A stretch of DNA of 64,000 nucleotides, taken from contig NZ_CP108032.1 in assembly GCF_036169555.1 (NCBI RefSeq), positions 4,960,001 to 5,024,000 of the forward strand, given 5' to 3'. Under the pieces are notes generated by a model that was not told the origin of the DNA, did no database searches, and worked only from the letters and a program-made list of their open reading frames with translations. Source of the DNA: Streptomyces sp. NBC_00306 (lineage in GTDB: Bacteria; Actinomycetota; Actinomycetes; Streptomycetales; Streptomycetaceae). How positions within the stretch are numbered: position 1 is the first letter of the stretch; every line of letters starts with the position of its first letter. Below are positions 574 through 59,983 of the stretch, piece by piece. Position numbers and translations under genes: made by a program.

Positions 574-600
574 CGAGGGACGAGGAGCACCAAGAACACC

Positions 601-5289: not shown

Positions 5290-5290
5290 C

Positions 5291-6259: not shown

Positions 6260-6275
6260 TGTGACGTGGTGACGG

Positions 6276-6307
6276 CAGGACGGGCCCGCTCCGGCGGGCC
6301 CGTCCTG
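6276..6307 (+). terminator. Intrinsic-type terminator of the betaine operon
   Basis: A perfect 14-bp stem (CAGGACGGGCCCGC with its complement, loop TCCG) starts 16 bp after the stop codon of the binding-protein gene. It is followed by TTGTTGTGTGT on the + strand. The neighbour on the other side is convergent, so it may also stop transcription from the minus strand. Confidence 0.85.
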
Positions 6308-6384
6308 TTGTGTGTCGTGTCGTGGGGCCTGTCTTGGTGCTGCCGCGCCGCCCGTGCCGCCTGCGTGCCGTCGTCGCGTCCGTG

Positions 6385-7104: not shown

Positions 7105-7116
7105 CTCGGCAGCTCC

Positions 7117-7617
7117 TCAGTGCTGGTACTGGCCGGGTGTGTAGTGGCCCGGCACGAGCCGGCAGGTCACGCCGAAGCGGTTCCAGGCGTTGATGACGGT
7201 GATCGCCGCGATCAGCTGGGCCAGTTCGGTCTCGTCGAACTCCTTCGCCGCCTTCGCGAACACCTCGTCCGGCACGAAACCGTCGGTGATGACCGTCACC
7301 GCCTCGGTGAGCTCGATCGCCGCGATCTCCTTCGCCGTGTAGAAGTGCTGCGACTCCTCCCAGGCGCCGAGCTGGATGATCCGCTCCGGCGACTCGCCCG
7401 CGGCGAGCGCGTCCTTGGAGTGCATGTCCAGGCAGAAGGCACAGTGGTTGAGCTGCGAGGCACGGATCTTGACGAGCTCCAGGACCACCGGGTCGACGCC
7501 CCGACGGGCCGCCGCGTCCAGCGAGACCATCGCCTTGTAGACCTCGGGAGCGAGCTTCGCGAGATCGAGGCGGGGAGCGTGTTCGGGCAGACGCGTGGTG
7601 GTCGTTTCACTGTTCAT
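7117..7617 (-). CDS. Carboxymuconolactone decarboxylase/AhpD-family protein
   Basis: 166 residues. The motif HCAFCLDMHSKDAL is the redox-active CxxC...H motif of AhpD-type alkylhydroperoxidases. The C-terminal half has the usual second helical repeat (LAQLIAAITVINAWNRFGV). Such proteins reduce peroxides or act as dithiol relays in the cytoplasm. The ATG has no Shine-Dalgarno site; a TAGATT hexamer 7 nt upstream suggests a leaderless transcript (see promoter entry). It leads an operon with the PEP-mutase-like gene and is divergent from a MocR regulator, which may control it. Confidence 0.88.
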   Translation of the reverse strand: MNSETTTTRLPEHAPRLDLAKLAPEVYKAMVSLDAAARRGVDPVVLELVKIRASQLNHCAFCLDMHSKDALAAGESPERIIQLGAWEESQHFYTAKEIAAIELTEAVTVITDGFVPDEVFAKAAKEFDETELAQLIAAITVINAWNRFGVTCRLVPGHYTPGQYQH

Positions 7618-19272: not shown

Positions 19273-20028
19273 TCACAGCGGCAGTCGGCGGAACAGCGGG
19301 CGCGGCACATGCCGCAGCGCCGACATCACCAGCCGCAGAGCTCCGGGCACCCACACCGTCTCCGCCCTGCGCCGCAGCCCCTGCTCGACGGCCAGCGCGA
19401 CGGCCTCGGGCGTGGTGGCCAGCGGCGCCTCGGGCAGGCCGGCCGTCATCCTCGTCCTGACGAAGCCCGGGCGTACGGCCATCACATGGACCCCGGTCCC
19501 GTACATCGCGTCCCCCAGTCCCTGGGTGAAGACGTCCAGGCCGGCCTTGCTGGAGCCGTAGATGAAGTTGGCGCGGCGGGCCCGCTCGCCGGCCACCGAG
19601 GAGAGGACCACCAGGGAGCCGTGCCCCTGGTTCTGCAGCGCGGCCGCGCACACGAGTCCGGCCGAGACGGCGCCCGTGTAGTTGGTCTGCGCGACCCGGA
19701 CCGCCGCCGGCGGGTCGGCCTCGTCGTTCGCCTGGTCGCCGAGGACGCCGAAGGCGAGCAGCACCATGTCGATGTCGCCCTCCGCGAAGACCTTGCCCAG
19801 CACCTGTTCGTGCAGGGCGGGGTCGAGGGCGTCGAAGGCGACGGTGCGGACGTCGGCGCCGAGCCGGCGCAGTCCGTCCGCGGCGGCTTCGAGGTCGGGG
19901 GAGGGGCGGCCCGCCAGCCAGACCGTACGGGTGCGCCGGGCGATCAGCCGGCGGGCCACGGCCTGGCCGATCTCCGAGGTGCCGCCGAGGACGAGCAGGG
20001 ACTGCGGTGCGCCGAAGGCGTCCTTCAT
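19273..20028 (-). CDS. dprE2: Decaprenylphospho-beta-D-erythro-pentofuranosid-2-ulose 2-reductase (DprE2-like SDR)
   Basis: 251 residues. It is a short-chain dehydrogenase with cofactor motif VLGGTSEIGQAVA, active-site Ser in VVLSSVAGERARR and catalytic YGSSKAG. The sequence MKDAFGAPQSLLVLGGTSEIG and the end VWVPGALRLVMSALRHVPRPLFRRLPL resemble mycobacterial DprE2 (Rv3791). In mycobacteria it reduces the 2-keto lipid made by DprE1 to decaprenylphosphoryl-arabinose, using NADH. It lies directly downstream of dprE1 with a 97-bp G-rich gap. Activity in this organism is inferred from the complete gene set. Confidence 0.9.
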   Translation of the reverse strand: MKDAFGAPQSLLVLGGTSEIGQAVARRLIARRTRTVWLAGRPSPDLEAAADGLRRLGADVRTVAFDALDPALHEQVLGKVFAEGDIDMVLLAFGVLGDQANDEADPPAAVRVAQTNYTGAVSAGLVCAAALQNQGHGSLVVLSSVAGERARRANFIYGSSKAGLDVFTQGLGDAMYGTGVHVMAVRPGFVRTRMTAGLPEAPLATTPEAVALAVEQGLRRRAETVWVPGALRLVMSALRHVPRPLFRRLPL

Positions 20029-20125
20029 GAGCAGTGCTCCTTACGAGCGGTGGAGAGCCCCGGCTGGTGGACCGGGGGCGGGAGTCGGGGGGCGAGGCGG
20101 AGCCGGGCCGGGGGCGGGGGCAGGG

Positions 20126-21508
20126 TCAGAGCGTGAGGCGGCGTGAGAGGTCGGAGGCGAACACGCCGTGGGGGTCCAGCCGAGCGCGCAGCGCGCGGAA
20201 GTCGGCCAGCCGCGGGTACATGCCGGCCAGCAGCTCCGGCCGCAGCCGGGAGTCCTTGGCGAGATAGACCCGTCCGCCCGCCCCGGCGACCTCGTCGTCG
20301 AGTTCGTCCAGGAAGGCGCCGAGGCCGGGCAGATCCGCGGGGATGTCGAGCGCGAGCGTCCAGCCGGCCATCGGGAAGGACAGCCACCCGGCGTCCCCCT
20401 CGCCGAACCGTTTGAGCACCGCGAGGAACGAGGGGCAGCCGCGCCGTGCGATCCGCCGCACAATCCGGCGCAGCGTCTCCTCCTGCCCGTGCCCGAGCAC
20501 GAACTGGTACTGCACGAATCCGCCGCGGCCGTAGATCCGGTTCCAGTGCGGTACGCCGTCCAGCGGATGGAAGAAGGAGGAGAGCTTCTGCAGCTCACCG
20601 AGGCGGAGCCGGGGCGCCCTGCGGAACCAGAGCTCGTTGAAGAGGCCGACCGTGGCGCGGGTGAGCAGGCCGGGCGGTACGAAGCGGGGCGGGCCGGGCA
20701 GCCGTCCGGGGCGGAACGCGAGCGGTGCGCGGCGGGCGCGTGCGGGCAATGCGTCCAGCGGGGCGTGCTCGCCGCGGGTGAGCACGGAGCGTCCCAGTGC
20801 CCGGCCGCGGGCGAGCAGGTCGATCCAGGCGACCGAGTAGCGGTAGCGGTGGTCGGTGGCGGTGAGCCGGGCCATCAAGTCGTCCAGATCGGCGGCCCGT
20901 TCGGTGTCGACGGACATCAGCGACGTCTCGACGGGGTGCAGCCGGAGGGTCGCCGAGAGGATCACCCCCGTCAGGCCCATACCGCCCGCGGTCGCGTCGA
21001 AGAGTTCGGTGCCGGGCCGCACCGTGTGGACCGCGCCGTCCGCGGTGAGCAGGTCCGCCGCGTCGACATGGCGGGCGAAGGAGCCGCTGACGTGGTGGTT
21101 CTTGCCGTGGATATCGGCGCCGATCGCTCCGCCGACCGTGACCTGCCGGGTCCCCGGCGTCACCGGTACGAACCAGCCGAGCGGCAGCAGCACCTCCATC
21201 AGCCGGTGCAGGCTCACCCCCGCGTCGCACACCACGACACCCGTGTCGGCGTCGACGGAGCGGATGCGGTCCAGGGCGGTCATGTCGAGGACCGAGCCGC
21301 CCGCGTTCTGCGCCGCGTCGCCGTACGCCCTGCCGAGCCCGCGGGCGATCCCGCCGCGGGTGCCCCAGTCCCGTACGGCCGCGGCGGCCTCGTCGGCGGT
21401 GCGTGGCCGCAGCACGAACGCGGTCGTCGGGGCCGTACGCCCCCAGCCGGTGACGGACACGAAGGTGCCACCGGGACCGGCGGCGGAAGGACGGGTGTCG
21501 GCAGCCAT
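20126..21508 (-). CDS. dprE1: Decaprenylphosphoryl-beta-D-ribose oxidase (DprE1-like FAD enzyme)
   Basis: 460 residues, close to mycobacterial DprE1 (461). The FAD-binding region includes RGLGRAYGDAAQNAGG and GGAIGADIHGKNHHVSGSF. The substrate domain carries the catalytic Lys in YLAKDSR at residue 418, the same number as in M. tuberculosis. It oxidises the ribose C2 of decaprenylphosphoryl-ribose. The residue matching the benzothiazinone-reactive Cys387 is Ala386 (motif WTLALDIP against WNICVDFP). The ATG has no strong Shine-Dalgarno site; a TATACG hexamer 9 nt upstream may be its -10. It is divergent from the PAP2/UbiA genes of the same pathway. Confidence 0.92.
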   Translation of the reverse strand: MAADTRPSAAGPGGTFVSVTGWGRTAPTTAFVLRPRTADEAAAAVRDWGTRGGIARGLGRAYGDAAQNAGGSVLDMTALDRIRSVDADTGVVVCDAGVSLHRLMEVLLPLGWFVPVTPGTRQVTVGGAIGADIHGKNHHVSGSFARHVDAADLLTADGAVHTVRPGTELFDATAGGMGLTGVILSATLRLHPVETSLMSVDTERAADLDDLMARLTATDHRYRYSVAWIDLLARGRALGRSVLTRGEHAPLDALPARARRAPLAFRPGRLPGPPRFVPPGLLTRATVGLFNELWFRRAPRLRLGELQKLSSFFHPLDGVPHWNRIYGRGGFVQYQFVLGHGQEETLRRIVRRIARRGCPSFLAVLKRFGEGDAGWLSFPMAGWTLALDIPADLPGLGAFLDELDDEVAGAGGRVYLAKDSRLRPELLAGMYPRLADFRALRARLDPHGVFASDLSRRLTL

Positions 21509-21659
21509 ACCCCGGACCGTATAGCCGTAAATGCCCTGTTTTCCGCAGACCTAACGGACGCGCCGAAATGGGTGATTAAACGAGTGTCATCAAAGATGAG
21601 CGTGAAACTCGGCCGGTCGCCGAGAAGAGTCCCCCCTGGCTCAGGAGAAGGGGTGGCGA

Positions 21660-22241
21660 ATGAGATACGTCGACTGCGCGGCCGCCGACCGAAGGCTGTT
21701 GGCAGCGATGCGCGCGTACGGGGGACGACCGGGCGTCGCGGTCGCCGTACGCGCGCTCTCCCTCGCCGGGGAGCACGCCGCGCTGTGGCTCGCCGCCGGT
21801 CTCACCGGCGCGGCGGCCGACCCGGAACGGCGCGGGCGCTGGCTGCGCGCCACGGCCGTGGTCGGCGGGGCCCACCTGGCGAGCATGGGCGTCAAACACG
21901 TCGTCCGCAGGCCCCGCCCCGAACTCCCCTCGCACCGCCCCCTCGTGCACACCCTGGGCCGGCACTCCTTCCCCAGCTCGCACGCCGCGTCGGCCGCGGC
22001 CGCCGCCGTGGCCTTCGGCGCACTGCTCCCCGCGGCCCGCCGGCTGGCGCCACCGCTGGCCGCCGCGATGTGCGTCTCGCGCCTGGTCGCCGGGGTCCAC
22101 TACCCGACGGACATCGCGGCGGGCGCGGTACTCGGCGGGCTGGCCGCGCGCGCCGGGGCCCGGTGGGCGGGCGGCGCCGTGTCGCCCGGCTTCACGGGGG
22201 CCCGCGCCGCCGGACGTCCGAGGGGCCGGTGCCATGTCTGA
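21660..22241 (+). CDS. PAP2-superfamily phosphatase, probable decaprenylphosphoryl-5-phosphoribose phosphatase
   Basis: 193 residues with about five membrane segments. All three PAP2 signature motifs are present: KHVVRRPRPELP, FPSSHAASA and SRLVAGVHYPTDIAAG. In mycobacteria a PAP2 protein (Rv3807c) next to the UbiA enzyme is the proposed phosphatase that removes the 5-phosphate of the lipid-linked phosphoribose. The same adjacency here (overlap of 8 bp with the UbiA gene) supports that role. GGAGAAGGGG precedes the ATG. It faces dprE1 across a 151-bp gap. Confidence 0.88.
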   Translation: MRYVDCAAADRRLLAAMRAYGGRPGVAVAVRALSLAGEHAALWLAAGLTGAAADPERRGRWLRATAVVGGAHLASMGVKHVVRRPRPELPSHRPLVHTLGRHSFPSSHAASAAAAAVAFGALLPAARRLAPPLAAAMCVSRLVAGVHYPTDIAAGAVLGGLAARAGARWAGGAVSPGFTGARAAGRPRGRCHV

Positions 22242-23175
22242 GCCCGGTACCGCGCTGCTGGAGCGGCCCCGGAAACCGTCGCCGCCGCGGGCCGTGAGCC
22301 TGCCGGTCGGACTGCTCAGGACCGCCCGGCCCCGGCAGTGGATCAAGAACGTGCTCGTGGTGGCCGCGCCCGCCGCCGCCGGTGAACTGGACTCCCCGCA
22401 CGCGGCCGGACAACTGGCCGTCGTCTTCGTCCTGTTCACCGCCGCCGCGGCAGCGGTCTATCTGATCAACGACGCCCGGGACGCGGACGCCGACCGTGCC
22501 CATCCGGTGAAGTGCCGCCGCCCCGTCGCGGCGGGCGAGGTCCCGGTGCCCGTCGCGTACACCGTGGGCGCCGTGCTCGCCGGCACCGCCGTCGGCGGAG
22601 CCGCTGCCCTGTGCACCCCCATGACCGGCGCCCTGCTGACCGCGTATCTCTCGATGCAACTCGCCTACTGCATCTGGCTCAAGCACGTGCTCGTCGTCGA
22701 CCTGGCCGTCGTCACCACCGGGTTCCTGATGCGCGCGATGATCGGCGGGGTCGCGCTCGGCATCCCGCTCTCGCGCTGGTTCCTGATCACCACCGGCTTC
22801 GGCGCCCTGTTCATGGTCGCGGCGAAGCGCTACTCCGAAGCCGTGCAGCTGGCCGACAGCAAGGGCGCGACCCGGGCGCTGCTCACCGAGTACACGACCG
22901 GCTATCTGCGCTTCGTCTGGCAGCTCGCCGCCGGTGTCGCCGTCCTCGCCTACTGCCTGTGGGCCCTGGAGAGCGGCGGTGTGGCCGCTTCGGCGCTGCT
23001 GCCCTGGCGGCAGCTGTCGATGATCGCCTTCATCATGGCGGTGCTGCGGTACGCGGTCTTCGCCGACCGCGGCACGGCCGGCGCACCCGAGGACGTGGTG
23101 CTGCGGGACCGGCCGCTGGCCGTCATCGGCCTGGTGTGGGCCGCGATGTACGGACTGGCGGTCGCCGACCTGTGA
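22234..23175 (+). CDS. Decaprenyl-phosphate phosphoribosyltransferase (UbiA family)
   Basis: 313 residues with nine or so membrane helices. The UbiA metal-diphosphate motif is NDARDADADRAHPVKCRRP, very like the motif of mycobacterial Rv3806c. The enzyme would transfer phosphoribose from PRPP to a polyprenyl phosphate on the cytoplasmic side of the membrane. A second Asp-rich region lies in AAKRYSEAVQLADSKG. It overlaps the PAP2 gene upstream by 8 bp and the GtrA gene downstream by 4 bp, so the three are translated together. Confidence 0.92.
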   Translation: MSEPGTALLERPRKPSPPRAVSLPVGLLRTARPRQWIKNVLVVAAPAAAGELDSPHAAGQLAVVFVLFTAAAAAVYLINDARDADADRAHPVKCRRPVAAGEVPVPVAYTVGAVLAGTAVGGAAALCTPMTGALLTAYLSMQLAYCIWLKHVLVVDLAVVTTGFLMRAMIGGVALGIPLSRWFLITTGFGALFMVAAKRYSEAVQLADSKGATRALLTEYTTGYLRFVWQLAAGVAVLAYCLWALESGGVAASALLPWRQLSMIAFIMAVLRYAVFADRGTAGAPEDVVLRDRPLAVIGLVWAAMYGLAVADL

Positions 23176-50024: not shown

Positions 50025-50061
50025 ACGGTGACCGTAGAAACTCAAGCGTGCTTGAGGTCAA
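50024..50061 (-). promoter_or_regulatory. Promoter of the MarR gene with two stacked palindromes
   Basis: On the minus strand, TTGACC (50061-50056) and TACGGT (50036-50031) are separated by 19 nt. CTCAAGCGTGCTTGAG (50041-50056) is a perfect 16-bp palindrome in the spacer. TACGGTGACCGTA (50024-50036) is a second perfect palindrome covering the -10 and the first base of the start codon. The first is a likely MarR operator. It also covers the stop codon of the upstream monooxygenase gene. Confidence 0.72.
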
Positions 50062-51490
50062 GGCCTCCGTGGGCACCGGCCCGGCGCAGCCATGCGGCCA
50101 GTCCCGCCGTGTCCTCGCCGGCCCAGCCGATGTAGCCGTCGGGCCGGACCAGGAAGAGGCCCTTGCCGTACGGCTCGTACGCGTCGATCCGGTGGCAGCG
50201 CACCACATCGCCGTCCCCTGACGGGAGTCCGGCGTCCGTGCCGACGGCGAGCAGGGTGAAGTGCGGGCCGCGGAACAGGTCGAAGATCCGGCGGCCGTCC
50301 GGCAGCGGGCCGTCCGGCGCCCGGTCGCCCGCCTCCAGCGCGCCCGCGGACCCCGCGGCGAGCGGCCCGCCGCGATAGCCGAGCCCCAGTTGCATGGTGG
50401 CCTCACCGCGCCGGGCCTCGCCGCGGTGAATACGCGTCGACAGGCCGAGCATCTGCGCGGCCACGGGCAGTCGCTCCTCCTCGTAGCTGTCGAGCAGCTC
50501 CTCGGGTGCGCCGTGGAGCAGTACCTGGCCGAGCTTCCAGCCGAGGTTGTACGCGTCCTGGACGCTGGTGTTGAGGCCCTGCCCACCGGCCGGTGAGTGC
50601 ACATGGGCGGCGTCGCCCGCCAGGAAGACCCGCCCTTCGCGGAAGCGCTCCGCCAGGGCGGCGCGCGGCCGGAAGTCCGACGACCAGCGCACGTCGGTGA
50701 CGTCGTCCGTGGTCAGATGGGTGCGGGCGGCGATCAACTCCCGTACGCCCGCGGGGGAGATGTCGGGCTCCGACTCCGAGAACCGGCCCGTGACCTGGAA
50801 GTCATCCGTCCCCGGCAGAGGGCAGACGGCGAGGAACGCGGCCCCGTCGCCCGGAAAGACATGCCAGTTCAGGCGGTCGAGCGCGGGGATGCGGACGTCC
50901 GCGACGAGCATCGGGGCGGGATCGACGCTCTCGCCGGTCATCGGGATGCCGAGGATGCGACGGACGAGACTGCGGCCCCCGTCGGCGGCGACCGCGTAGT
51001 CCGCCCGGACGGTGCCCGTCGTCAGCTCGGCCGTCACGCCGTCCTCGTCCTGGGTGAGGGCGGTGAGGGCTGCGCCGAAGGTGACCGTGCCGCCGAGTTC
51101 CGTGAGCCGGCTGTGCAGGATCTGCTGGGTGCGCCACTGGGGGAGCAGCCAGGGTTCGCCGTAGGGAGCGGCCTCCGTGGGCCCCGGGCGCTCGAACATG
51201 TCGTGCTCGCCGCGTCGTTCGCCGTTCTCCCAGAGCATTCCGACCGGCGCCCTGCCGCCCGCGTCGAGGACCGCGTCCACGACCCCGAGGTCGTCGAGGA
51301 CCTCCAGGGTGCGGGGCTGGAGGCCCTTGCCGCGGGAGCCGGGGAAGAGGGTGTCGGACTGCTCCACGACGAGCGTGCGGACGCCGCGGCGTGCGAGGTC
51401 ACAGGCGAGGGCGAGCCCGGTGGGGCCGGCGCCGACGACGAGCACCTGGGCGTCCGCGGTCCCGCCGTCCTTAACGCTGTTAAGTTCCAT
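50042..51490 (-). CDS. FAD-dependent monooxygenase (PheA/TfdB-type aromatic hydroxylase family)
   Basis: 482 residues. FAD motifs are VLVVGAGPTGLALACDLARRG (GxGxxG), the DG motif in YAVAADGGRSLVRRILGI, and GDAAHVHSPAGGQGLNTSVQDAYNLGWKL. A thioredoxin-like C-terminal part (FTLLAVGTDAGLP...YIGWAGEDTAGLAAWLRRAG) is typical of the family. It hydroxylates an aromatic compound using NAD(P)H. The ATG at 51490 has no Shine-Dalgarno site; codons 2-7 coincide with a TetR-type operator. It is divergent from a TetR gene that probably represses it. Confidence 0.9.
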   Translation of the reverse strand: MELNSVKDGGTADAQVLVVGAGPTGLALACDLARRGVRTLVVEQSDTLFPGSRGKGLQPRTLEVLDDLGVVDAVLDAGGRAPVGMLWENGERRGEHDMFERPGPTEAAPYGEPWLLPQWRTQQILHSRLTELGGTVTFGAALTALTQDEDGVTAELTTGTVRADYAVAADGGRSLVRRILGIPMTGESVDPAPMLVADVRIPALDRLNWHVFPGDGAAFLAVCPLPGTDDFQVTGRFSESEPDISPAGVRELIAARTHLTTDDVTDVRWSSDFRPRAALAERFREGRVFLAGDAAHVHSPAGGQGLNTSVQDAYNLGWKLGQVLLHGAPEELLDSYEEERLPVAAQMLGLSTRIHRGEARRGEATMQLGLGYRGGPLAAGSAGALEAGDRAPDGPLPDGRRIFDLFRGPHFTLLAVGTDAGLPSGDGDVVRCHRIDAYEPYGKGLFLVRPDGYIGWAGEDTAGLAAWLRRAGAHGGLDLKHA

Positions 51491-51526
51491 GCATGCAGAG
51501 TGAACTTAACAGCGTTAAGTTGTCAA
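51470..51526. promoter_or_regulatory. Mirrored pair of TetR operators over the monooxygenase promoter and first codons
   Basis: Two 15-bp palindromes, CTTAACGCTGTTAAG (51470-51484) and CTTAACAGCGTTAAG (51505-51519), are mirror images; their 18-bp extended arms are exact reverse complements with a 14-nt centre. On the minus strand TTGACA (51526-51521) and CACTCT (51502-51497) form a promoter with an 18-nt spacer that contains the second palindrome. The first palindrome is coding sequence of the monooxygenase (codons 2-7). The TetR gene starts 23 bp away on the other side. Confidence 0.8.
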
Positions 51527-51548
51527 GGGGGTGTGGGAGGGTGGGCGC

Positions 51549-52172
51549 GTGGCTACGGAACGACTCGACCGGATCCGGGTGGCGCGCACCGCTCTGCGCC
51601 TGCTCAACGAGGTGGGCCTCGAAGGACTGACCCTGCGCGGGATCGCCAAGGAGCTCGACGTCAAAGCCCCGGCGCTGTACTGGCACTTCAAGGACAAGCA
51701 GGCGCTGCTCGACGAGATGGCCACGGAGATGCTCCGCCGCATGACGGCGGACCTCGCCCAGGCGCCCCCGCCGGCGGACTGGCGCGAGGCGTACGCGGCG
51801 GCGATGCGGGGGCTGCGGTCACACCTCCTGCGCTACCGCGACGGTGCGCGTGTCTACAGCGGCACGCACTTCACGGACCTGAGCTACGCGGCTCCGATGG
51901 AGGCCCAGCTGCGGACGCTCACCGAGGCGGGATTCACGCCGGGGGCGGCGGCACGGGCGTGGCAGACCGGGTACAGCTACACGATCGGTTACGTGATCGA
52001 GGAACAGGCGACGGGGGAGGGGTACGACCTGGGCGCGCGGGAGGAGCGCCTGTCGGAGTACCCGCTGGCAGCGCAGGCGGGTGAGGAACTGTTCGGGTCC
52101 CGGGACGAGGGCTTCGAAAGCGGCCTGGCGGCGCTGGTGTCGGGGGTGGGCGCGGTGCTGGGCCCGGGGTGA
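51549..52172 (+). CDS. TetR-family regulator (TetR_C type)
   Basis: 207 residues from a GTG at 51549, with GGGAGGG about 9 nt upstream. The helix-turn-helix is RIRVARTALRLLNEVGLEGLTLRGIAKELDVKAPALYWHFKDKQALLDEMA, close to classical TetR. The ligand domain contains HFTDLSYAAPMEAQL and GYSYTIGYVIEEQA, as in tetracycline-repressor-like proteins. The adjacent 15-bp operators TTAACNNNGTTAA fit this class. It should repress the divergent FAD monooxygenase gene and itself; the inducer is probably the enzyme's substrate. Confidence 0.9.
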   Translation: MATERLDRIRVARTALRLLNEVGLEGLTLRGIAKELDVKAPALYWHFKDKQALLDEMATEMLRRMTADLAQAPPPADWREAYAAAMRGLRSHLLRYRDGARVYSGTHFTDLSYAAPMEAQLRTLTEAGFTPGAAARAWQTGYSYTIGYVIEEQATGEGYDLGAREERLSEYPLAAQAGEELFGSRDEGFESGLAALVSGVGAVLGPG

Positions 52173-52352: not shown

Positions 52353-53678
52353 CTATCCCAGCGCCAGCTTCTTCAGGCGGCGTGCCTTGCGCGCCACCCT
52401 CCGCACCGCCGCGTGCCGCGGTACCGGGATACCTCCCGGCAGGCCCAGCACCGTCAGGCGGCGGCGCTTGAAGTAGCGCCACGTCCGTCCGTTCAGGCTG
52501 CCGCCGAGGTACCGCTCCGCCGCCGGGCGCAGGTCGGACCTGATCTGCGGCTGCATCGCGAAACCGACCGCGCTCAGCAGCCCGGTCACCTCCTCGTCCG
52601 CGGCCTTCGGTGTACCGGCCTCGCCCTCCGCCAGGTCCGGCACCAGCGCGTCGACGACCGTCAGCGGGATCCGGTTGCTGTTCTGGTACGGCGTGAGACG
52701 GTCCAGCAGCGGCTCCGTACCGACCCGGGCCACCGGAATGCCGTAGAACGTGCTCGCCGTGAACAGAGCAGTCGAGAAACAGCCCGCCACCAGCGCGGGG
52801 CGCAGCTGCCGGTAGAGCACCTCCGCCAGCACCGGCCGGTCCAGCACGGTGAGTTCCGCGTCCAGCGCCACCGCCTCCCTCTCCAGCGTCCGGGTCCAGG
52901 ACGCCGGTGCCGTGGGGTGCGGTTTGAAGACGATCCGGCGGTGGCCGAGCGCGACCGCGCCCCGCACCATCCGTACGTGCAGGGCCTCTTCCTCCGCCGG
53001 TGTGATGATGCCGAGCGCCGCGAGGTACTGGCCGAGCAGCAGCGCCGCGCCCTCGCCGACCGCTGCCTGCGCCGGTGACTCCTCGACGCCGTCGGACAGT
53101 TCGGCGATGACCTTGACGAACGCCTCGGTCGCGACGACCAGCGGCTTCACCCCGAACTCCGAGAGCAGCAACGGCTTCAGACCCGGCACCAGGTCCAGGT
53201 GGAACAGGGTGCGCACCCGCTCGCCCACCAGCGGGTCGATCTTGCTGCGGGTGGGGCCGTAGCTCATCAGCCCGTCCGCGTAGACGTCCAGCGCCGCGTC
53301 GGGGAAGAGCTGGGCGATCGCGAGGGCCGGCGTGACCTGGATCGACTCGACCGCGAGCTCGATCCGGTCGTCGCCGAGGTCCCACAGCATGCGCAGATAC
53401 CGCTCCCACAGCGGCCCGTCGTCCGGGCGCGGCGACCAGCCGCCGGGGTGGAAGGGCGAGATCGCCTCGTTCCAGGAGATCACCCCGTCGAAGCGCCCGC
53501 GCAGCCGCTCGAATCCCGGCATGGTGTCGAGCGAGGGCGAAGTCTCCGGCGTCGTGGCGTTGTTGGCGACCAGCAGCAGCCGCCGGTCCGCGGCCGGGAA
53601 GCAGCCGCTGTCGATCGCCGCGGACAGCGTTGCCGCACCGTACAGCGAGGAGGCGTAGAAGATCTGGGTCGTGGGCAT
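52353..53678 (-). CDS. Polysialyltransferase-family glycosyltransferase
   Basis: 441 residues. It matches the bacterial alpha-2,8-polysialyltransferase family: a D/E-D/E-G-like motif in VYADGLMSYGP (D135-G136), the HP motif in FKPHPTAP (H254-P255), and the Ser-Thr motif in GCFSTALF (S302-T303). No membrane segment is seen; a basic C-terminus (RRVARKARRLKKL) may bind the membrane surface. With a CMP-sugar synthetase and a NeuB-type synthase nearby, it probably polymerises a Kdn or sialic-acid-like polymer onto a wall lipid. Its ATG overlaps the GT2 stop by 1 bp. Confidence 0.88.
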   Translation of the reverse strand: MPTTQIFYASSLYGAATLSAAIDSGCFPAADRRLLLVANNATTPETSPSLDTMPGFERLRGRFDGVISWNEAISPFHPGGWSPRPDDGPLWERYLRMLWDLGDDRIELAVESIQVTPALAIAQLFPDAALDVYADGLMSYGPTRSKIDPLVGERVRTLFHLDLVPGLKPLLLSEFGVKPLVVATEAFVKVIAELSDGVEESPAQAAVGEGAALLLGQYLAALGIITPAEEEALHVRMVRGAVALGHRRIVFKPHPTAPASWTRTLEREAVALDAELTVLDRPVLAEVLYRQLRPALVAGCFSTALFTASTFYGIPVARVGTEPLLDRLTPYQNSNRIPLTVVDALVPDLAEGEAGTPKAADEEVTGLLSAVGFAMQPQIRSDLRPAAERYLGGSLNGRTWRYFKRRRLTVLGLPGGIPVPRHAAVRRVARKARRLKKLALG

Positions 53679-54691
53679 CAGGCCGCGGCCTCCGAGGAGA
53701 GGGGGGAGGGACGGCGACGGAGCCTGCGCAGACGCGAGGCGCGTTCGGTGTCCATCGAGTCGAGCGCTTCCTTCAAAATGTCCTGCGGCATCCGTTTCAG
53801 TGCGGCCGCGCTCATCCCACGCAATTTCCGTGCCACCGCGGGCTCGAACCTCTCCACCGATCCCAGGTGATGAGAAATGACCGCACAGTATGTCCGCACT
53901 GCTTTGGGAAGAAGTCGCGCGGAATCCGGATCCTGCGCCGTTTCTTCGAGTACCTGGTCGAATGCCCGGATGAAATCCAGCTGCCGAATGTCACCGATTT
54001 GTGTCAGGGACGATGCGACGCCGCGTCGGTAGAAGATGCCCAGGTGGCTGATCACCGCGAACGTCTCCGCCTCGCGGTGCAGCCGCCAGATCCACGGCCG
54101 GTCCTCTGCGGTGCGCAGACCGTGGGTGAAGTGCAGCAGCCCGCGGTCGGCCAGCCGGCGGTGGTACATCCCGGCCCACGCGAAGGGGTAGTCCACGCCG
54201 GTCGAGCGGTCGGCGGGCAGGATCGCGTCGCGCGGCCGCAGCACCTCGCCCCGCCGGCCGACGGGGACGCGGTGGACCGTACGGGCCCTGGCCGTGCACT
54301 GCACATGGTCGGTGCGCACGAAGTCGCAGCCCAGGTCCTCCATGGCGGTGAGCAGATGCTCGAAGTGGCCCGGGGCGAGCCAGTCGTCGCCGTCCAGGAA
54401 GGCCAGATACTCCCCGTGCGCCGCGTCGAGACCGGTGTTGCGGGCGGTGGCGAGACCGCCGTTCTGTTCGTGTCTGATCAGCCGCGCCCCGGGCACCTCC
54501 CGCTCCGCGCGCTCGAGGATCTCCGGAGTCCCGTCCTTCGAACAGTCGTCGACGAGGAGGAATTCGAAGTCCTCGCGGGCGTTCGCCTGCAGGCTTCTGA
54601 GGGTGTCGGGCGCGTATGTCTGCACGTTGTAGAACGGCACGATGACGGAGAGCTTGACCACCCCCGTGAGGCTAGGGGCGGAAACCGGCAT
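53678..54691 (-). CDS. Family 2 glycosyltransferase
   Basis: 337 residues. The GT-A domain is clear: VKLSVIVPFYNVQTYAPDTLRSL, FEFLLVDDCSKDGTPEIL, NGGLATARNTGLDAAHGEYLAFLDGDDW (DxD motif in DGDD) and TAEDRPWIWRLHREA. The C-terminal half is helical. The start is uncertain: ATG 54691 is used, with a GGGGAC site upstream; a GTG at 54661 would give MVKLSVIVP. It is coupled to the polysialyltransferase gene and divergent from the next gene, so it probably makes a linkage or backbone sugar of the same polymer. Confidence 0.9.
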   Translation of the reverse strand: MPVSAPSLTGVVKLSVIVPFYNVQTYAPDTLRSLQANAREDFEFLLVDDCSKDGTPEILERAEREVPGARLIRHEQNGGLATARNTGLDAAHGEYLAFLDGDDWLAPGHFEHLLTAMEDLGCDFVRTDHVQCTARARTVHRVPVGRRGEVLRPRDAILPADRSTGVDYPFAWAGMYHRRLADRGLLHFTHGLRTAEDRPWIWRLHREAETFAVISHLGIFYRRGVASSLTQIGDIRQLDFIRAFDQVLEETAQDPDSARLLPKAVRTYCAVISHHLGSVERFEPAVARKLRGMSAAALKRMPQDILKEALDSMDTERASRLRRLRRRPSPLSSEAAA

Positions 54692-54835
54692 TCGTTCTGT
54701 CCCCGGCAAGGATGAAAGGTGAACAGAAGGCGACGGTGCGGTTGATCCGCTGTTTCCCGGGCGCTTTCGCCAACCGTAGACGCGCTGTTAACCATCTGTT
54801 GTGGTCGAGTTGGGCCGTCAAACGGAATGCCTTTC

Positions 54836-54841
54836 TAACGT
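54836..54841 (+). promoter_or_regulatory. Candidate -10 box for a leaderless transcript
   Basis: TAACGT lies 7 nt before the GTG at 54849, and no Shine-Dalgarno site is present. The arrangement fits a leaderless message reading into the sugar-activation genes. The -35 is unclear. Confidence 0.4.
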
Positions 54842-54848
54842 CCTCGGC

Positions 54849-56174
54849 GTGCCATCAAGTACCAGTGAGGCCGTACGGGTCGCCGTACTCGCCGATTCAG
54901 ACACCCGGTGGAAATGGGGCGCGCTCACCGCGCGCCGTACAACCCCGAACGACACCCCCGACTCCGTCGAGCTGAGCGGCTTTCTGCTGCGCGGCCGGGC
55001 CACTCCCACGGCCCGCCAGCTCGCCGAGGTCGGTGTGCAGGTGGACGAGTTGCGCGAGGTCACGGCGAACGAGTTCCTGCACGCCGTCGAGGACGACTCG
55101 TACGACGTGATCGTGCTCGCCCTCGTCGGCGGTGCCGTCCAGGCCCTGCTGCACGGGCTGGCAGCGCTGAAGATGCCGCTGCGCCCGGTCGTCGTCACCG
55201 GGTACGTGGGCGTCGTCTACGAGAAGCTCGCCGACGGACTGCTGCTGCGGCACGGCGCCGACGTCGTCCTCGCCAACTCCCGTCACGACGTGGACCGTTT
55301 CCGCGCGGTGTACGAGGGCGTGGGCGCCGACGCCTCGTCCGTCACCGAGGCCGCGCTGCCCTTCCTCGGCGGGACGCCCTACCGGCCCGAGGCGGGCCGC
55401 GACACGGTCGTCTTCGCCGCCCAGCCCTCCGTCCCGGAGTCCCGCGCCCACCGCACCCACCTGCTGCGACGGCTCGTCGAGCACGCCCGTCTGCACCCCG
55501 GCCGCGAAGTGCTGCTGAAACTGCGCTCCCGTCCGGGCGAGCACACGACGCACCTCGAAGAGCTTCCGTACCAGAAGCTCGCCGAGAAGCTGCCCGGCGG
55601 TCTCCCGCCCAACTTCCGTCTGGTGTACGGGAACATGGGCGAGGTCTTGGACCGCGCCGACCTGCTGGTGACCGTCTCCTCGACGGCCGCGCTGGAGTCG
55701 CTGCACCGCGGGATACCGACGGCGATCCTCACCGACCTCGGTGTGCGCGAAGCCCTCGGCAACCACCACTTCCTCGGCTCCGGCCTGCTCACCTCGTGGG
55801 ACCGCCTCGACGGCGGCCACCGCCCTGTGCCCGACCCGGACTGGCTGTCCCGGCAGGGCGTCGCCGCCGACGGGACGTACGACTCCGCCTTCGACGCGGC
55901 CCGTGAACGCGTCGCCCTGCTGCTGGAGAAGCCCGAACTCCCGCCGATCACGCCGTACTACACCCCCGCGACGGCACCCGGATATCTGCCCGGCATCCTC
56001 GCCCGCCACCACCTCGGTGCCGACGGCACCCCGCTCCAGGGCGCGGCGAGGACCACCGAGATCAGCGGCGTCCGGCGTGTGGTGCGCGACGCCGTACGGG
56101 GGGTGGCGCGCGGCGCGTACCGCCACGGCGTGCAGCGCGTCGCCCCCGTCCTCCGCCGGATGGGCCGGCTGTGA
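54849..56174 (+). CDS. Putative glycosyltransferase-like protein of the wall-polymer locus (DUF6716-like)
   Basis: 441 residues from a GTG. No membrane helices. The fold looks GT-B-like: VAVLADSDTRWKWGALTARR at the start, ALVGGAVQALLHGLAAL, and a late block LVTVSSTAALESLHRGIPTAILTDLGVREALGNHHFLGSGLL that resembles the donor site of capsule transferases. A basic C-terminus (RRVVRDAVRGVARGAYRHGVQRVAPVLRR) may bind membrane. The name DUF6716 is from memory. It leads the row with the CMP-sugar synthetase and NeuB-type genes, and its stop is 50 bp before the synthetase start. Confidence 0.75.
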   Translation: MPSSTSEAVRVAVLADSDTRWKWGALTARRTTPNDTPDSVELSGFLLRGRATPTARQLAEVGVQVDELREVTANEFLHAVEDDSYDVIVLALVGGAVQALLHGLAALKMPLRPVVVTGYVGVVYEKLADGLLLRHGADVVLANSRHDVDRFRAVYEGVGADASSVTEAALPFLGGTPYRPEAGRDTVVFAAQPSVPESRAHRTHLLRRLVEHARLHPGREVLLKLRSRPGEHTTHLEELPYQKLAEKLPGGLPPNFRLVYGNMGEVLDRADLLVTVSSTAALESLHRGIPTAILTDLGVREALGNHHFLGSGLLTSWDRLDGGHRPVPDPDWLSRQGVAADGTYDSAFDAARERVALLLEKPELPPITPYYTPATAPGYLPGILARHHLGADGTPLQGAARTTEISGVRRVVRDAVRGVARGAYRHGVQRVAPVLRRMGRL

Positions 56175-56224
56175 CCCACGAGAGCAGCGGCGCACACCCG
56201 CAACCGACGTACCCAGGAGCCCAG

Positions 56225-57565
56225 ATGACCGTTCTCGCCGTGATCCCCGCCCGAGGCGGCTCGAAAGGCGTACCGGCCAAGAATCTGGCGCCGGTGGGCG
56301 GAGTGCCGCTGGTGGCGCGGGCCGTGCGCGAGAGCCTCGCCGCCCGGCTGGTGACCGATGTCGTGGTCTCCACGGACGACCCGGACATCGCGGCGGCGGC
56401 CCGGAGCGCGGGCGCCGAGGTGGTCCTGCGGCCGGCCGCGATCGCCGGCGACACCGCCACCAGCGAGGCCGCCGTCCTGCACGCCATGGACGCCTTCGAG
56501 GCGATGAACGGCGTCCAGGTCGACGTGGTCCTGCTTGTCCAGTGCACCAGCCCCTTCCTGAGCCGCCAGGACATCGAGGGCGTGGCCGCCGCGGTCGCCG
56601 AGCGCGGCGCGGACAGCGCGGTCACCGTGGCCCCCTTCCACGGCTTCGTCTGGCGCGAGGACGCCGAGGAGCCGGTCGGCACCACGGGTGAACAGGCAGG
56701 GAACGCGGGCGAGTACGGGGCCGTGCGCCCCGCCGTCGGCGCACAGCCCACCGGCGCCGCCACCGCACTGCTCGCCGGCACCGCCCCCGGCGGCCGCGGC
56801 GTCAACCACGACTCGTCCTTCCGCCCGCGCCGCCAGGACCGCCCGCAGGACTTCCTGGAGACGGGCGCCGCGTACGCCATGGCCGCCACCGCCTTCCGCG
56901 AGGCCGGACACCGCTTCTTCGGCCGCACCGCCCTCGTCCGCACCGACCCCGCCCGGGTCCTCGAAGTGGACGACCCCCACGATCTCGAGCGCGCCCGTGC
57001 GCTCGCCCCGCTCCTCGACACCCCCGCGCTGCCCACGCGTGAGGACGTCGACGCCGTCGTCCTCGACTTCGACGGCACCCAGACCGACGACCGGGTCCAC
57101 ATCGACGCGGAGGGCCGGGAGATCGTCTCGGTGCACCGCGGCGACGGCCTCGGCATCGCGCATCTGCGCAACGCCGGTCTGCCCCTGCTCATCCTGTCCA
57201 CCGAGCAGAACCCGGTGGTCGCGGCGCGCGCCCGCAAGCTCAGGATCCCCGTCCTGCACGGCGTCGACCGCAAGGACCTCGCCCTCAAGCAGTGGTGCGA
57301 GGACCAGGGGATCGCGCCCGAACGCGTGCTCTACGTCGGCAACGACGTCAACGATCTTCCGTGCTTCGACCTCGCCGGCTGGCCCGTTGCCGTCGCGAGC
57401 GCTCACGGATCCGTACGCGCCGCCGCGCGTGCCGTCACTACCACCCGCGGCGGTGAGGGGGCGATCCGTGAGATCGCCGCCTGGCTTCTCGGCCCGACCC
57501 TTCTCCACACCCCAGCAGGCAGTCCCCCAGCCCCTGCCACGTCCCACAACACCCCCGAGAGTTAA
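56225..57565 (+). CDS. Acylneuraminate cytidylyltransferase fused to a HAD phosphatase
   Basis: 446 residues. Residues 1-235 are CMP-sialic-acid-synthetase-like: VIPARGGSKGVPAKNLAPVGG, STDDPDIA, LLVQCTSPFL and RPRRQDRPQDFLETGAAYAM. An Ala/Gly-rich insertion at about 149-191 interrupts the domain. Residues 275-430 are a HAD phosphatase with D281-F-D283-G-T, LSTEQNP, the Lys of GVDRKDLALKQW and GNDVNDLPCF. The fusion could dephosphorylate a 9-phosphate sugar and activate it with CTP. ATG 56225 is preferred because AGGAG lies 5 nt upstream; a GTG at 56171 overlaps the previous stop. Confidence 0.9.
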   Translation: MTVLAVIPARGGSKGVPAKNLAPVGGVPLVARAVRESLAARLVTDVVVSTDDPDIAAAARSAGAEVVLRPAAIAGDTATSEAAVLHAMDAFEAMNGVQVDVVLLVQCTSPFLSRQDIEGVAAAVAERGADSAVTVAPFHGFVWREDAEEPVGTTGEQAGNAGEYGAVRPAVGAQPTGAATALLAGTAPGGRGVNHDSSFRPRRQDRPQDFLETGAAYAMAATAFREAGHRFFGRTALVRTDPARVLEVDDPHDLERARALAPLLDTPALPTREDVDAVVLDFDGTQTDDRVHIDAEGREIVSVHRGDGLGIAHLRNAGLPLLILSTEQNPVVAARARKLRIPVLHGVDRKDLALKQWCEDQGIAPERVLYVGNDVNDLPCFDLAGWPVAVASAHGSVRAAARAVTTTRGGEGAIREIAAWLLGPTLLHTPAGSPPAPATSHNTPES

Positions 57566-57578
57566 GGATCTTCCCCCC

Positions 57579-58502
57579 ATGAGCACGTCCCGTCTGCGTA
57601 CCCTCGGCACCAGGACCGCCGGGCCGGGCCACCCCGTCTACGTCACGGGTGAGATCGGCATCAACCACAACGGCGACCTCGACAACGCGTTCGCGCTCAT
57701 CGACGCCGCGGCCGACGCCGGCTGCGACGCGGTCAAGTTCCAGAAGCGCACGCCGGAGATCTGCACGCCGCGCGACCAGTGGGACATCGAGCGCGACACC
57801 CCCTGGGGCCGGATGACGTACATCGACTACCGCCACCGCGTGGAGTTCGGCGAGGACGAGTACCGCCGGATCGACGAGCACTGCAAGAAGCGGGGCATCG
57901 ACTGGTTCGCCTCCCCGTGGGACACCGAGGCCGTCGCCTTCCTGGAGAAGTTCGACGTCCCGGCGCACAAGGTCGCCTCCGCGTCCCTCACCGACGACGA
58001 GCTGCTGCGCGCCCTGCGCGGCACCGGCAAGACGGTCATTCTCTCCACCGGCATGTCGACGCCGCGGCAGATCCGCCACGCGGTGGAGGTGCTCGGCAGC
58101 GACAACATCCTGCTCTGCCACGCCACGTCGACGTACCCGGCGAAGGCCGAGGAGCTCAACCTGCGCGTGATCAACACGCTCCAGGCGGAGTACCCGAACG
58201 TCCCGATCGGCTACTCCGGCCACGAGACGGGTCTCCAGACCACGCTGGCCGCGGTCGCACTCGGCGCCGCGTTCGTCGAGCGCCACATCACGCTCGACCG
58301 CGCCATGTGGGGCTCCGACCAGGCGGCCTCCGTCGAGCCGGGCGGCCTCCAGCGCCTGGTCCGCGACATCCGCACGATCGAGACCGCGCTGGGCGACGGC
58401 GTCAAGAAGGTCTACGACTCCGAGCTCGCCCCGATGAAGAAGCTGCGCCGGGTCGCGGGCGTCGTCGCCGAGGGGGGCGACCGCGAGCCCGCGGCGGTCT
58501 GA
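57579..58502 (+). CDS. NeuB-type sialic acid/Kdn synthase without SAF domain
   Basis: 307 residues. The NeuB barrel is clear: YVTGEIGINHNGDLDNAFALIDAAADAGCDAVKFQKR, KVASASLTDDELLRAL, GYSGHETGLQTTLAAVALGAAFVERHITLDRAMWGSDQAASVEP. It condenses PEP with a hexose derivative (ManNAc, or mannose-6-phosphate for Kdn-9-phosphate). The usual C-terminal antifreeze-like (SAF) domain of NeuB is missing; the chain ends soon after the barrel. AAGGA lies 10 nt before the ATG, 13 bp after the upstream stop. A Kdn-type product fits the phosphatase fused to the neighbouring synthetase. Confidence 0.9.
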   Translation: MSTSRLRTLGTRTAGPGHPVYVTGEIGINHNGDLDNAFALIDAAADAGCDAVKFQKRTPEICTPRDQWDIERDTPWGRMTYIDYRHRVEFGEDEYRRIDEHCKKRGIDWFASPWDTEAVAFLEKFDVPAHKVASASLTDDELLRALRGTGKTVILSTGMSTPRQIRHAVEVLGSDNILLCHATSTYPAKAEELNLRVINTLQAEYPNVPIGYSGHETGLQTTLAAVALGAAFVERHITLDRAMWGSDQAASVEPGGLQRLVRDIRTIETALGDGVKKVYDSELAPMKKLRRVAGVVAEGGDREPAAV

Positions 58503-58912
58503 CACCCGACCGCCGTCGCCCCGGGGGCGCACGCACCGCTCCTGTCACCCGCACGACGGGGTGACCCGAGGTGCAGCCGACCCCGGGGGCGCCGGCCCTT
58601 CGGCCGTGGGCCGGCGGCCGGGGCGCCCGGTCGCGGGGCCGGGCGCTCCTGGCCGTGACCCGCTGCACGGCCCGCCCGGGCCGCGGCCGTGACCCGCTCG
58701 ACGGCCACCCCGGACCTGCGGTCGTGGCCGGGGGCACCGGCCCGCACGCCCGCCCCGCACTCCGTCCGACCCGGCCCCCGGGAACTCCCGCCCGCCCCGC
58801 ACTCCGCCCCCGGAAGCTCCCGCCCCGCACTCCGCCCACCCGGAACTTCCGTCCACCAGGTATCGCCGTCCGCCCGGAACTCCCGACCACCCGGATCACG
58901 AGGTGACCCACA
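58503..58912. repeat. 410-bp non-coding gap with degenerate GC-rich repeats
   Basis: Between 58747 and 58900 the motif CCGCCCCGCACTCCG recurs about three times (near 58750, 58793 and 58826), followed each time by CCCGGAAC/GCTCCCG-like sequence. Earlier, GGCCGTGACCCGCT occurs twice (58650 and 58685 regions). No promoter, start signal or conserved gene was seen inside. The next gene has its own ribosome binding site at the end of the tract. Confidence 0.7.
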
Positions 58913-59983
58913 GTGAATCTCGCCTTCGTCGAGAGTCCGGTCCAGCTCCTGAACGTCCTGGAGTGGGCCCACGCCCGGCCCGGTGCGCCGCCGGACGTGG
59001 TGCCGGAGGGCCTGGGGCGGCGGGGTGACCGCGGGGCCGAGCTGACCGTGGTCGTCCTCTCGCCCACCGATCCCATGTCGCGCGGCCAGCTGCGCCGGAT
59101 GGCGGAGCTGGCCCGTGACGAGGGATTCACGGTCCGCTGGCAGGAGGCCCGCGGCGGGACCGGTGCGCCGCTGAAGACCGTGCGCCGGCTCGCCCCGATG
59201 CTGCACCGCGCGGAACGCATCGTCATAGGCGACCCCTTCTCGCGCTACGTGCAGCTGCTGCTCACCCTGGTCGGAGGCAAGGATCTGACCGTCGTCGACG
59301 ACGGCACCGCCACGATGGAGTTCGTGGCCCAGCTCGCCAGCGGCGAGAAGCTCGTGCGCTGGCACCGTCGCGGCAGGCGCGGTCCGCGCGAGATGGTCCT
59401 CGCGCCCGTGACGTTCCTGGCCCGCCGCCGGCTCACCCCGTCGCGGTCCCGCCGGGTCGAGGTGTTCACCTCGATGCCGGTCGAGCCGCCGCCGGGGATC
59501 ACCGTCACCCCCAACCTCTTCGGCTGGACCCGCGCCCGCTTCGGCCCGCCGAAGATCACCCGAGGCGCCGACCTGGTCGGAACGTCGCTGGTGGAGACGG
59601 GGGTGGTCGACCCCGACCAGTACGTGGAGGCCGTCACCGCGCTGGCCCGCACCCACGGCGCCACGCGCTACTTCGCACACCGGCGGGAGAGCTCCGACAA
59701 GCTGCACCGGCTCGCGGTGGAGACCGGCCTGGAGATCGTCCGGCCCGATCTGCCGCTGGAGCTGATCGCCCGCAGGGGCCCGATCGGCGCCACGGTCCTC
59801 AGTTTTCCCTCGACCGTGGTGCACACCCTTCCGCTGGCCCTCGCGGGCACCGGCATCCGGGTGGCGGTCTGCGACATCTCCCCGGAATGGCTCAGGGACA
59901 GCGCCTCGCCCCGCGCACAGGGATTCCTCGCCGGGGTCACGGGCACCGCACGGGATGTCCAGCGGCTGCCCGCACCGGCCTGA
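58913..59983 (+). CDS. Putative sialyl/polysialyltransferase-like protein of the wall-polymer locus
   Basis: 356 residues from a GTG preceded by GAGGTG. It begins with FVESPVQLLNVLEWA, recalling GT52 and related capsule transferases (ESPxQLLN). It has a D-D-G motif in VVDDGTATMEF (D129-D130-G131), a late His region (YFAHRRESSDKLHRL) and a Ser-Thr motif in VLSFPSTVVHTLPLAL. These are the three sites typical of bacterial sialyltransferase-like GT-B enzymes. A direct family assignment needs a profile search. It follows the NeuB-type gene after a repeat-rich gap. Confidence 0.72.
   Translation: MNLAFVESPVQLLNVLEWAHARPGAPPDVVPEGLGRRGDRGAELTVVVLSPTDPMSRGQLRRMAELARDEGFTVRWQEARGGTGAPLKTVRRLAPMLHRAERIVIGDPFSRYVQLLLTLVGGKDLTVVDDGTATMEFVAQLASGEKLVRWHRRGRRGPREMVLAPVTFLARRRLTPSRSRRVEVFTSMPVEPPPGITVTPNLFGWTRARFGPPKITRGADLVGTSLVETGVVDPDQYVEAVTALARTHGATRYFAHRRESSDKLHRLAVETGLEIVRPDLPLELIARRGPIGATVLSFPSTVVHTLPLALAGTGIRVAVCDISPEWLRDSASPRAQGFLAGVTGTARDVQRLPAPA

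Follow-up and report, generated by a model that had tools for sequence, protein, structure and literature searches.

Six genes fill positions 52353–59983 of the 64,000-nucleotide stretch of DNA analysed here (hereafter 'the window'; positions 4,960,001–5,024,000 of the 8.5 Mb single-contig genome of Streptomyces sp. NBC_00306). Quite probably, they form the core of the Streptomyces pathway to teichulosonic acid, a cell-wall polymer containing the nonulosonic acid 2-keto-3-deoxynononic acid (Kdn). The locus is of a known kind, so the value of the analysis lies in likely roles for two formerly unknown genes, to which candidate exporters can be added. One of the two genes encodes a DUF6716 protein, assigned here to the family of NeuE of the Escherichia coli K1 capsule; the other, which we call gtX, encodes a protein that is likely polysialyltransferase-like in its predicted fold. 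Together, they suggest that a Streptomyces wall polymer is built by a stripped-down K1 capsule machine (a NeuE-family primer enzyme and a NeuS-type polymerase) plus gtX, a third transferase using a cytidine monophosphate (CMP)-activated nonulosonate, with a polysialyltransferase fold but no detectable sequence similarity, and of a family unnamed in the libraries searched. We advance this proposal tentatively and give it slightly less than even weight.

An earlier note on this DNA had listed a NeuB-type synthase, a CMP-sugar synthetase fused to a phosphatase, a polysialyltransferase, a GT2 glycosyltransferase, and two more proteins, and this set is confirmed, with all six genes lying exactly where they had been placed. 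Its caution over the roles of the proteins at 54849–56174 and 58913–59983 was also justified, both transferases having been unassigned. Two genes are on the minus strand, polyST (52353–53678) and GT2 (53678–54691, with an open reading frame extending to a TTG at 54709), and four are on the plus strand: DUF6716 (54849–56174), the CMP-sugar synthetase/HAD fusion gene neuA (56171–57565), neuB (57579–58502), and gtX (58913–59983). The GT2 stop and polyST start have one base in common (TGATG) and DUF6716 and neuA overlap by four bases (GTGA); each of these pairs is therefore probably translationally coupled. The neuB–gtX gap measures 410 bases in the window, the median across 78 loci being 11 bases (at most 150 in 74 of the 78). 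Imperfect GC-rich direct repeats with units of 19–40 nt lie inside this gap, at 58651–58894.

By gene order and published labels, the comparison being of these rather than of aligned sequences, the six genes are the counterpart of SCO4877–SCO4882 of Streptomyces coelicolor: polyST corresponds to SCO4877, GT2 to SCO4878, DUF6716 to SCO4879, the fusion gene to SCO4880, neuB to SCO4881, and gtX to SCO4882. The claim that the S. coelicolor genes for a Kdn-containing teichulosonic acid include close counterparts is thereby supported. SCO4873–SCO4882 are cited as teichulosonic acid genes and as targets of the regulator PhoP (PMC13011467), and the S. coelicolor polymer is described as galactose plus Kdn in up to seven repeats in a research paper (PMC11481543) and a review (PMC7831098). 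A table of phosphate-starvation genes (PMC2267785) gives SCO4873 and SCO4877 as hypothetical, SCO4878 as a putative glycosyltransferase, SCO4879 as conserved hypothetical, SCO4880 as a putative transferase, and SCO4881 as putative polysaccharide biosynthesis related; the table in another paper (PMC8269224) includes SCO4877, SCO4878 (GT2), SCO4879, SCO4880 (labelled sialic acid synthase), and SCO4882. Because these two tables label SCO4880 differently, we rely on collinearity with the window in taking SCO4880 as NeuA and SCO4881 as NeuB. The counterpart region of S. lividans is reported to be raised under phosphate stress (PMC8003754). A mutant in SCO4878 is reported with lowered actinorhodin production (PMC6585502), which suggests that the polymer may touch antibiotic output.

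The arrangement is strongly conserved. The DUF6716 protein was used to retrieve 80 Streptomyces loci, the top-ranking 80 of at least 560 matches. Of these loci, 78 hold all six genes, GT2 included, in the same order and orientation, and the other two (L013 and L036) stop at contig ends; the six-gene set is therefore not a chance grouping. At the level of the order, 176 of 197 genomes have a match to gtX, every one of them belonging to the genus of the window; five genomes of that genus are listed without gtX. NeuB is absent from all five, and DUF6716 over the cut-off from four; the fifth (G411), a 630-contig assembly, has DUF6716 near a contig end. NeuB and DUF6716 are both present in each of ten gtX-positive genomes. 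A sample of 296 genomes from across the phylum yielded gtX in 9, of which two lie outside the genus (G031, with a match at 29% identity, and G151, where the match is weak, partial, and holds an internal stop), and DUF6716 over the cut-off in 12 of the 296. More distant relatives (L142, L143, L144, and L145) keep NeuA, NeuB, and DUF6716 together; L146 has these three plus polyST and GT2, and L145 has the series gtX–DUF6716–NeuB–NeuA–DUF6716 about 3 kb from an LCP gene.

The profile search that had been proposed for the gtX protein returned no Pfam or NCBIfam family at E 0.01, and a sequence search of solved structures gave chance-level matches only. An AlphaFold2 model built with 47 Streptomyces sequences reached a mean pLDDT (predicted local distance difference test score) of 82.7. 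When the top 1000 Foldseek candidates for this model were re-examined with VIA-align, the polysialyltransferase of Mannheimia haemolytica (MhPST; 5wcn) came first (Z 20.3 over 313 residues, at a root-mean-square deviation of 5.0), followed by a second MhPST entry at 20.2; next were a GT80 sialyltransferase (2zwi; Z 14.8), an epimerase (14.2), and many GT-B proteins near 13. Three motifs of gtX are invariant in 77 of 77 loci: D129-D130-G131, H256-R257-R258, and S300-T301 (open reading frames outside length limits were left out of all motif counts, leaving 77 loci for gtX, 79 for polyST, and 80 for DUF6716). The catalytic residues reported for MhPST are E152/E153, H291, K293, and S339/T340 (PMC5517516). 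Its motif series, E152-E153-G, H291-P-K293, and S339/T340, has the same order as that of gtX, an equivalence by motif order rather than by superposition, and the motifs of gtX are spaced by 126 and 44, compared with 138 and 48 for MhPST and 119 and 48 for the polyST of the cluster. We therefore predict gtX to be a CMP-Kdn transferase, likely polysialyltransferase-like in its modelled fold and mechanism, and do not file it as a member of GT38. If this is correct, gtX adds a new branch to the bacterial sialyltransferases. Profile–profile comparison of gtX, DUF6716, and polyST was tried and gave nothing.

For the protein at 54849–56174, the profile search likewise proposed in the earlier note gave a clear answer: PF20471 (DUF6716), with E 3.9e-109 and 365.2 bits against a cut-off of 27. 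PF20471 was found in E. coli by a control search. In the E. coli K1 cluster (UTI89), neuC and the polysialyltransferase gene flank a gene annotated as DUF6716, which matches PF20471 at E 2.8e-15 (56.6 bits, cut-off 27); its position is that given for neuE in the K1 cluster (PMC2408645; PMC5517516). By this common Pfam family, the Streptomyces protein belongs to the NeuE family, and the locus accordingly holds NeuB, NeuA, NeuE, and NeuS types without NeuC. D18, Q192, R226, T275, and S277-S278-T279 are present in 80 of 80 loci, and D18, Q192, R226, T275, and S278 are also kept in K1 NeuE. Only a generic GT-B fold is evident in the DUF6716 model, and a sequence search of solved structures gave chance-level matches only. 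We predict a Kdn transferase that builds the primer or acceptor within a polymerase complex. The name DUF6716 appears in none of the papers that a term search of one open-access library listed. NeuE is a puzzle in K1 capsule synthesis, being either a primer enzyme or a scaffold; in the 78 complete Streptomyces loci, DUF6716 has a polysialyltransferase and nonulosonate pathway genes as neighbours, in a setting where it is safely open to deletion and assay, and the proposed stripped-down K1 machine would, if real, give the unsolved role of NeuE a harmless and genetically tractable test bed.

The polyST protein is the only match to the polysialyltransferase family PF07388 in the NBC_00306 genome (GT38 type; E 1.2e-30, 107.6 bits, cut-off 23.3), and its profile matches the solved Mannheimia polysialyltransferase SiaD (5wcn/5wc6) at E 1.1e-6. 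The HP motif (H254-P255) and S302-T303 are present; the place of the catalytic motif reads A134-D135-G136, with the second acid and glycine kept and alanine for the first acid. Alanine stands at this position in 79 of 79 polyST rows, some being second-copy genes. We predict an inverting CMP-Kdn chain transferase. The GT2 protein (PF00535, E 1.3e-34) is a predicted hexose (galactose) transferase. In nine of the 80 loci (L015, L019, L021, L022, L027, L029, L030, L034, and L037), the polyST in the core position (minus strand, beside GT2) has YAEG for YADG; in seven of these, a second polyST with YADG and HP lies about 1.5–5.4 kb away, L027 and L037 being short contigs. The YAEG protein has the look of an enzyme that has decayed or taken on another use, with a paralogue in its place. 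One locus, L012, has an extended cluster (179–7412) in which GT2 and polyST are each present twice, accompanied by genes for an acyltransferase and for a TPR protein bearing a polysaccharide pyruvyl transferase domain; pyruvylated Kdn has been reported in a Promicromonospora wall polymer (PMC6801904).

Kdn is the likely sugar, supported rather than proven. The NeuB protein (PF03102, E 3.5e-82; the only such match in the genome), a predicted Kdn-9-phosphate synthase, has no SAF match at E 0.001, whereas K1 NeuB has SAF (PF08666). The fusion protein, a predicted CMP-Kdn synthetase and Kdn-9-phosphate phosphatase, comprises a cytidylyltransferase (about residues 20–160; PF02348, E 1.9e-22) and a KdsC-type HAD phosphatase (about residues 291–440) that closely resembles the solved HAD protein 3mmz (E 6.6e-88) and is also a relative of 3e81. 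The latter, listed in the PDB as an acylneuraminate cytidylyltransferase, is presumably the Bacteroides Kdn-9-phosphate phosphatase, whose Glu56 and Lys67 we take to be the determinants of specificity for Kdn-9-phosphate. At these positions, the window protein keeps Glu/Lys and two KdsC proteins have Arg/Asp and Arg/Ala. The Glu/Lys pair is present in 67 of the 67 loci readable by a pattern script, the other 13 of the 80 being left out of the count. A literature search on the specificity residues of the phosphatase found no paper, and no gene names were found in the KDN capsule paper in which they were sought; looking for the polymer in a review of glycan NMR was likewise fruitless. A NeuB without SAF and a phosphatase with the Glu/Lys pair might, in combination, mark Kdn pathways in genomes.

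The region between the divergent genes (54698–54848) carries direct repeats with an 11-nt period resembling the PHO box, the consensus of which is GTTCACC (PMC4415409). The best three-unit site is at 54765–54797 on the plus strand, and two weaker units continue to 54819. Its three GTTCACC-like copies at 11-nt spacing score 15 of 21, a score reached by 11 of 3000 shuffles (which, like all promoter shuffles here, keep base composition only) and, among 369 tiles of the same length taken from the window, by 5, of which the promoter site itself is one; taken alone, the score of the window is suggestive. Across 82 intergenic regions (the window, 79 fetched loci, L086, and L087, the last being the window's own DNA and hence counted twice), the mean best score was 14.8 at spacing 11 against 11.5–12.6 at seven other spacings, and 22 of the 82 regions, against 0 of 1640 shuffles, scored at least 16. 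Conserved columns are also visible in the aligned divergent promoter regions. Such a preference for 11-nt spacing is as a PhoP operator would give, and the pattern, a matter of sequence alone, fits a putative operator in the divergent promoter.

The linked-exporter search that had been suggested found no Wzm or KpsM permease in the row, in the wider window (none at E 1e-3), or in the 80 loci (two Wzm queries and KpsM; 0 matches at E 1e-4). The earlier statement that the row encodes no flippase or ATP-binding cassette (ABC) exporter thus stands for Wzm/KpsM permeases, flippase families not having been searched. Queries with Wzt and KpsT match ABC ATPases in the window at 62.9 kb (beside a BMP gene) and 2.3 kb. 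In as many as 62 of the 80 loci (union of three queries), they match an ABC ATPase immediately to the right of the BMP gene, and 63 of 63 wztB pieces start at most 2.5 kb from a BMP match. Identities over the long matches are 22–28%, and we read these proteins as uptake ATPases, not as parts of an exporter. The suggestion that export is handled elsewhere is borne out to the extent that candidates are present elsewhere in the genome. Among 22 ABC2-type permease matches, five were chosen by eye from the match list and scanned, and two of these, at 3.14 and 7.02 Mb, have Wzm as their best NCBIfam match, with an ABC ATPase gene following each. The ATPase at 3.14 Mb is 35% identical to K1 KpsT over 209 residues; between the two pairs, identity is 64% for the permease and 76% for the ATPase. 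We rejected the ABC2 permease with the highest Pfam score (at 4.567 Mb) as an exporter candidate because its best NCBIfam match is DrrB-type efflux, itself under the cut-off. In L144, which belongs to another family, a Wzm/Wzt pair lies at most 3 kb from NeuB–DUF6716, and this pair beside NeuA, NeuB, and DUF6716 is the best hint for the export route.

A number of observations weigh against parts of this interpretation, above all against the roles given to DUF6716 and gtX. NeuE is described as an accessory membrane protein that is not strictly needed for K1 synthesis and may be structural, the need for it being suppressed by NeuS overproduction (PMC2408645). The DUF6716 protein could thus be a scaffold without catalytic activity, anchoring the polymerase to the membrane and exporter, a real possibility that we hold to be less probable than a transferase. 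The protein is without the HP motif, its model has a pLDDT of 71 with UDP-GlcNAc 2-epimerases as best fold matches (Z up to 16.6), and a C-terminal helix of low confidence in the model (residues 408–440) might be a membrane anchor such as that of NeuE; the top rows of the fold search hold no sialyltransferase, which does not exclude one. Against a scaffold stand the GT-B fold with its invariant residues, five of them kept in K1 NeuE, the retention of DUF6716 beside NeuA and NeuB in L142, L143, and L144 with no polyST within the 19 kb examined, and the proposal of others that NeuE is a priming sialyltransferase (PMC5517516). Second DUF6716 copies (at about 8.6–10.3 kb; 52–55% identical to the copy in the window) occur without NeuA or NeuB nearby in three Streptomyces genomes (L147, L148, and L149), where 19 kb around them gave no match to the other five cluster genes or the exporter queries; the family is therefore not confined to the Kdn pathway. 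As to gtX, the top match of Foldseek by itself was a GT80 sialyltransferase (E 1.7e-5), with UDP-GlcNAc 2-epimerases and MurG behind it, and MhPST was absent from its own top 50, which lowers the weight that we give to the stripped-down K1 machine; hhalign probabilities against the polyST profile were 0.3% for gtX and 1.5% for DUF6716. Sequence profiles thus link neither protein to polyST, and the case for gtX rests on one model and the re-examined Foldseek candidates. This mixed GT-B picture, the lack of a sequence family, and HR in place of HP would suit a GT-B enzyme that handles a different sugar, or a tailoring enzyme akin to the epimerases. We consider such a role rather unlikely, given a VIA-align score for MhPST that exceeds that of the next protein by 5.5 and those of the epimerases by 6, the DDG, H-x-basic, and S-T series with its MhPST- and polyST-like spacings, and the position of gtX adjoining NeuA/NeuB in the 78 complete loci and L145, the gtX matches examined one by one. 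Eight of the nine YAEG core polySTs are without HP near the expected place, so the core polyST gene is not always intact.

Similar weighing applies to the sugar and its export. That the locus makes another nonulosonic acid (N-acetylneuraminic acid or similar) is improbable in our view. In its favour, the best NCBIfam models are N-acetylneuraminate synthase for NeuB (TIGR03569; 250.7 bits, under the curated cut-off of 399.65) and PseF for the cytidylyltransferase (108.2, also below cut-off), and the genome has one UDP-HexNAc 2-epimerase (PF02350, E 1.1e-86; at 2.68 Mb), which may or may not be of the hydrolysing NeuC class. The phosphatase reaches 76.4 bits with the Kdn-9-phosphatase model NF058599, whose cut-off is 180; its score with KdsC is higher, at 93.8 bits, again below the cut-off. 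In contrast, none of the six cluster proteins matches a NeuC, aminotransferase, or N-acetyltransferase family in Pfam, the epimerase is 2.3 Mb from the cluster, NeuB is without SAF, the HAD domain has Glu/Lys where the two KdsC proteins differ, and the S. coelicolor polymer is reported to contain Kdn. The chemistry comes from other organisms, Kdn in the wall of NBC_00306 being a prediction. The conflicting SCO4880 labels, together with Wzm scores below the cut-off, slightly lower our confidence in the proposed pathway as a whole. For export, the Wzm-like matches are far under their NCBIfam cut-off (59.2 and 74.6 against 380), and Wzm was found in 20 of 20 genomes tested, including five without the cluster; Wzm is thus not tied to a Kdn polymer, and co-occurrence gives no discrimination. 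With no linked Wzm or KpsM in the 80 loci, and flippase families searched for in neither loci nor genome, a Wzx/Wzy-type flippase route could be imagined in place of Wzm/Wzt. We think it unlikely, in view of the linked pair in L144, the two Wzm/Wzt-like pairs of NBC_00306, and the polyST-type chain enzyme, which suggests growth before export, as in K1.

The proposed pathway would begin with NeuB, condensing mannose-6-phosphate and phosphoenolpyruvate to Kdn-9-phosphate, which the HAD domain of the fusion enzyme would dephosphorylate and the cytidylyltransferase domain convert into CMP-Kdn. Three GT-B proteins (DUF6716, polyST, and gtX) would then use CMP-Kdn, presumably in the cytoplasm. DUF6716 would start the chain by transferring a Kdn to a lipid-linked acceptor, or would hold the polymerase there; the GT38-type polyST, coupled to GT2, would add chain Kdn in alternation with GT2-added hexose (galactose in S. 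coelicolor); and gtX would add further Kdn as a linker, branch, or cap. An unlinked Wzm/Wzt ABC transporter would export the finished chain, and an LCP ligase with its gene outside the cluster would join it to peptidoglycan. The alpha-Kdn of a Promicromonospora teichulosonic acid (PMC6801904) is the anomer expected from an inverting enzyme that uses CMP-Kdn. PhoP would switch transcription on under phosphate starvation, and we propose that induction at low phosphate allows a phosphate-free polymer to replace phosphate-rich ones.

Elsewhere in the window, a flavin monooxygenase gene and a divergent TetR regulator gene lie left of the cluster (50042–52172); the monooxygenase scores above the NF004832 cut-off, with weaker matches to rifampin monooxygenases. 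At 19273–23175 are, by Pfam family, a short-chain dehydrogenase, an FAD-binding oxidase with an ALO-type end, and a UbiA prenyltransferase, which presumably resemble the DprE2/DprE1/UbiA set for a lipid-linked pentofuranose.

Among known systems, the closest is the SCO4873–SCO4882 region of S. coelicolor (Ostash 2014, as cited), with the same six genes by order and label and reported PhoP control, which the PHO-box-like repeats of the window fit; the window differs in the monooxygenase and TetR genes to the left, and its genome holds one PF07388 gene only. MhPST (GT38) is a sequence relative of the window polyST, which has A-D-G for its E-E-G; gtX matches it in predicted fold and motif order, but has HR for HP and no sequence similarity that we could find. 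The group 2 capsule cluster of E. coli K1 (neuB-neuA-neuC-neuE-neuS in UTI89) offers counterparts for NeuB, a two-domain NeuA, DUF6716 (NeuE), and the PF07388 protein (NeuS). In contrast to K1, the Streptomyces cluster is without NeuC and linked KpsMT, its NeuB is without SAF, its NeuA is fused to a HAD phosphatase rather than a GDSL esterase, and it has GT2 and gtX in addition, the product presumably being a wall polymer rather than a capsule.

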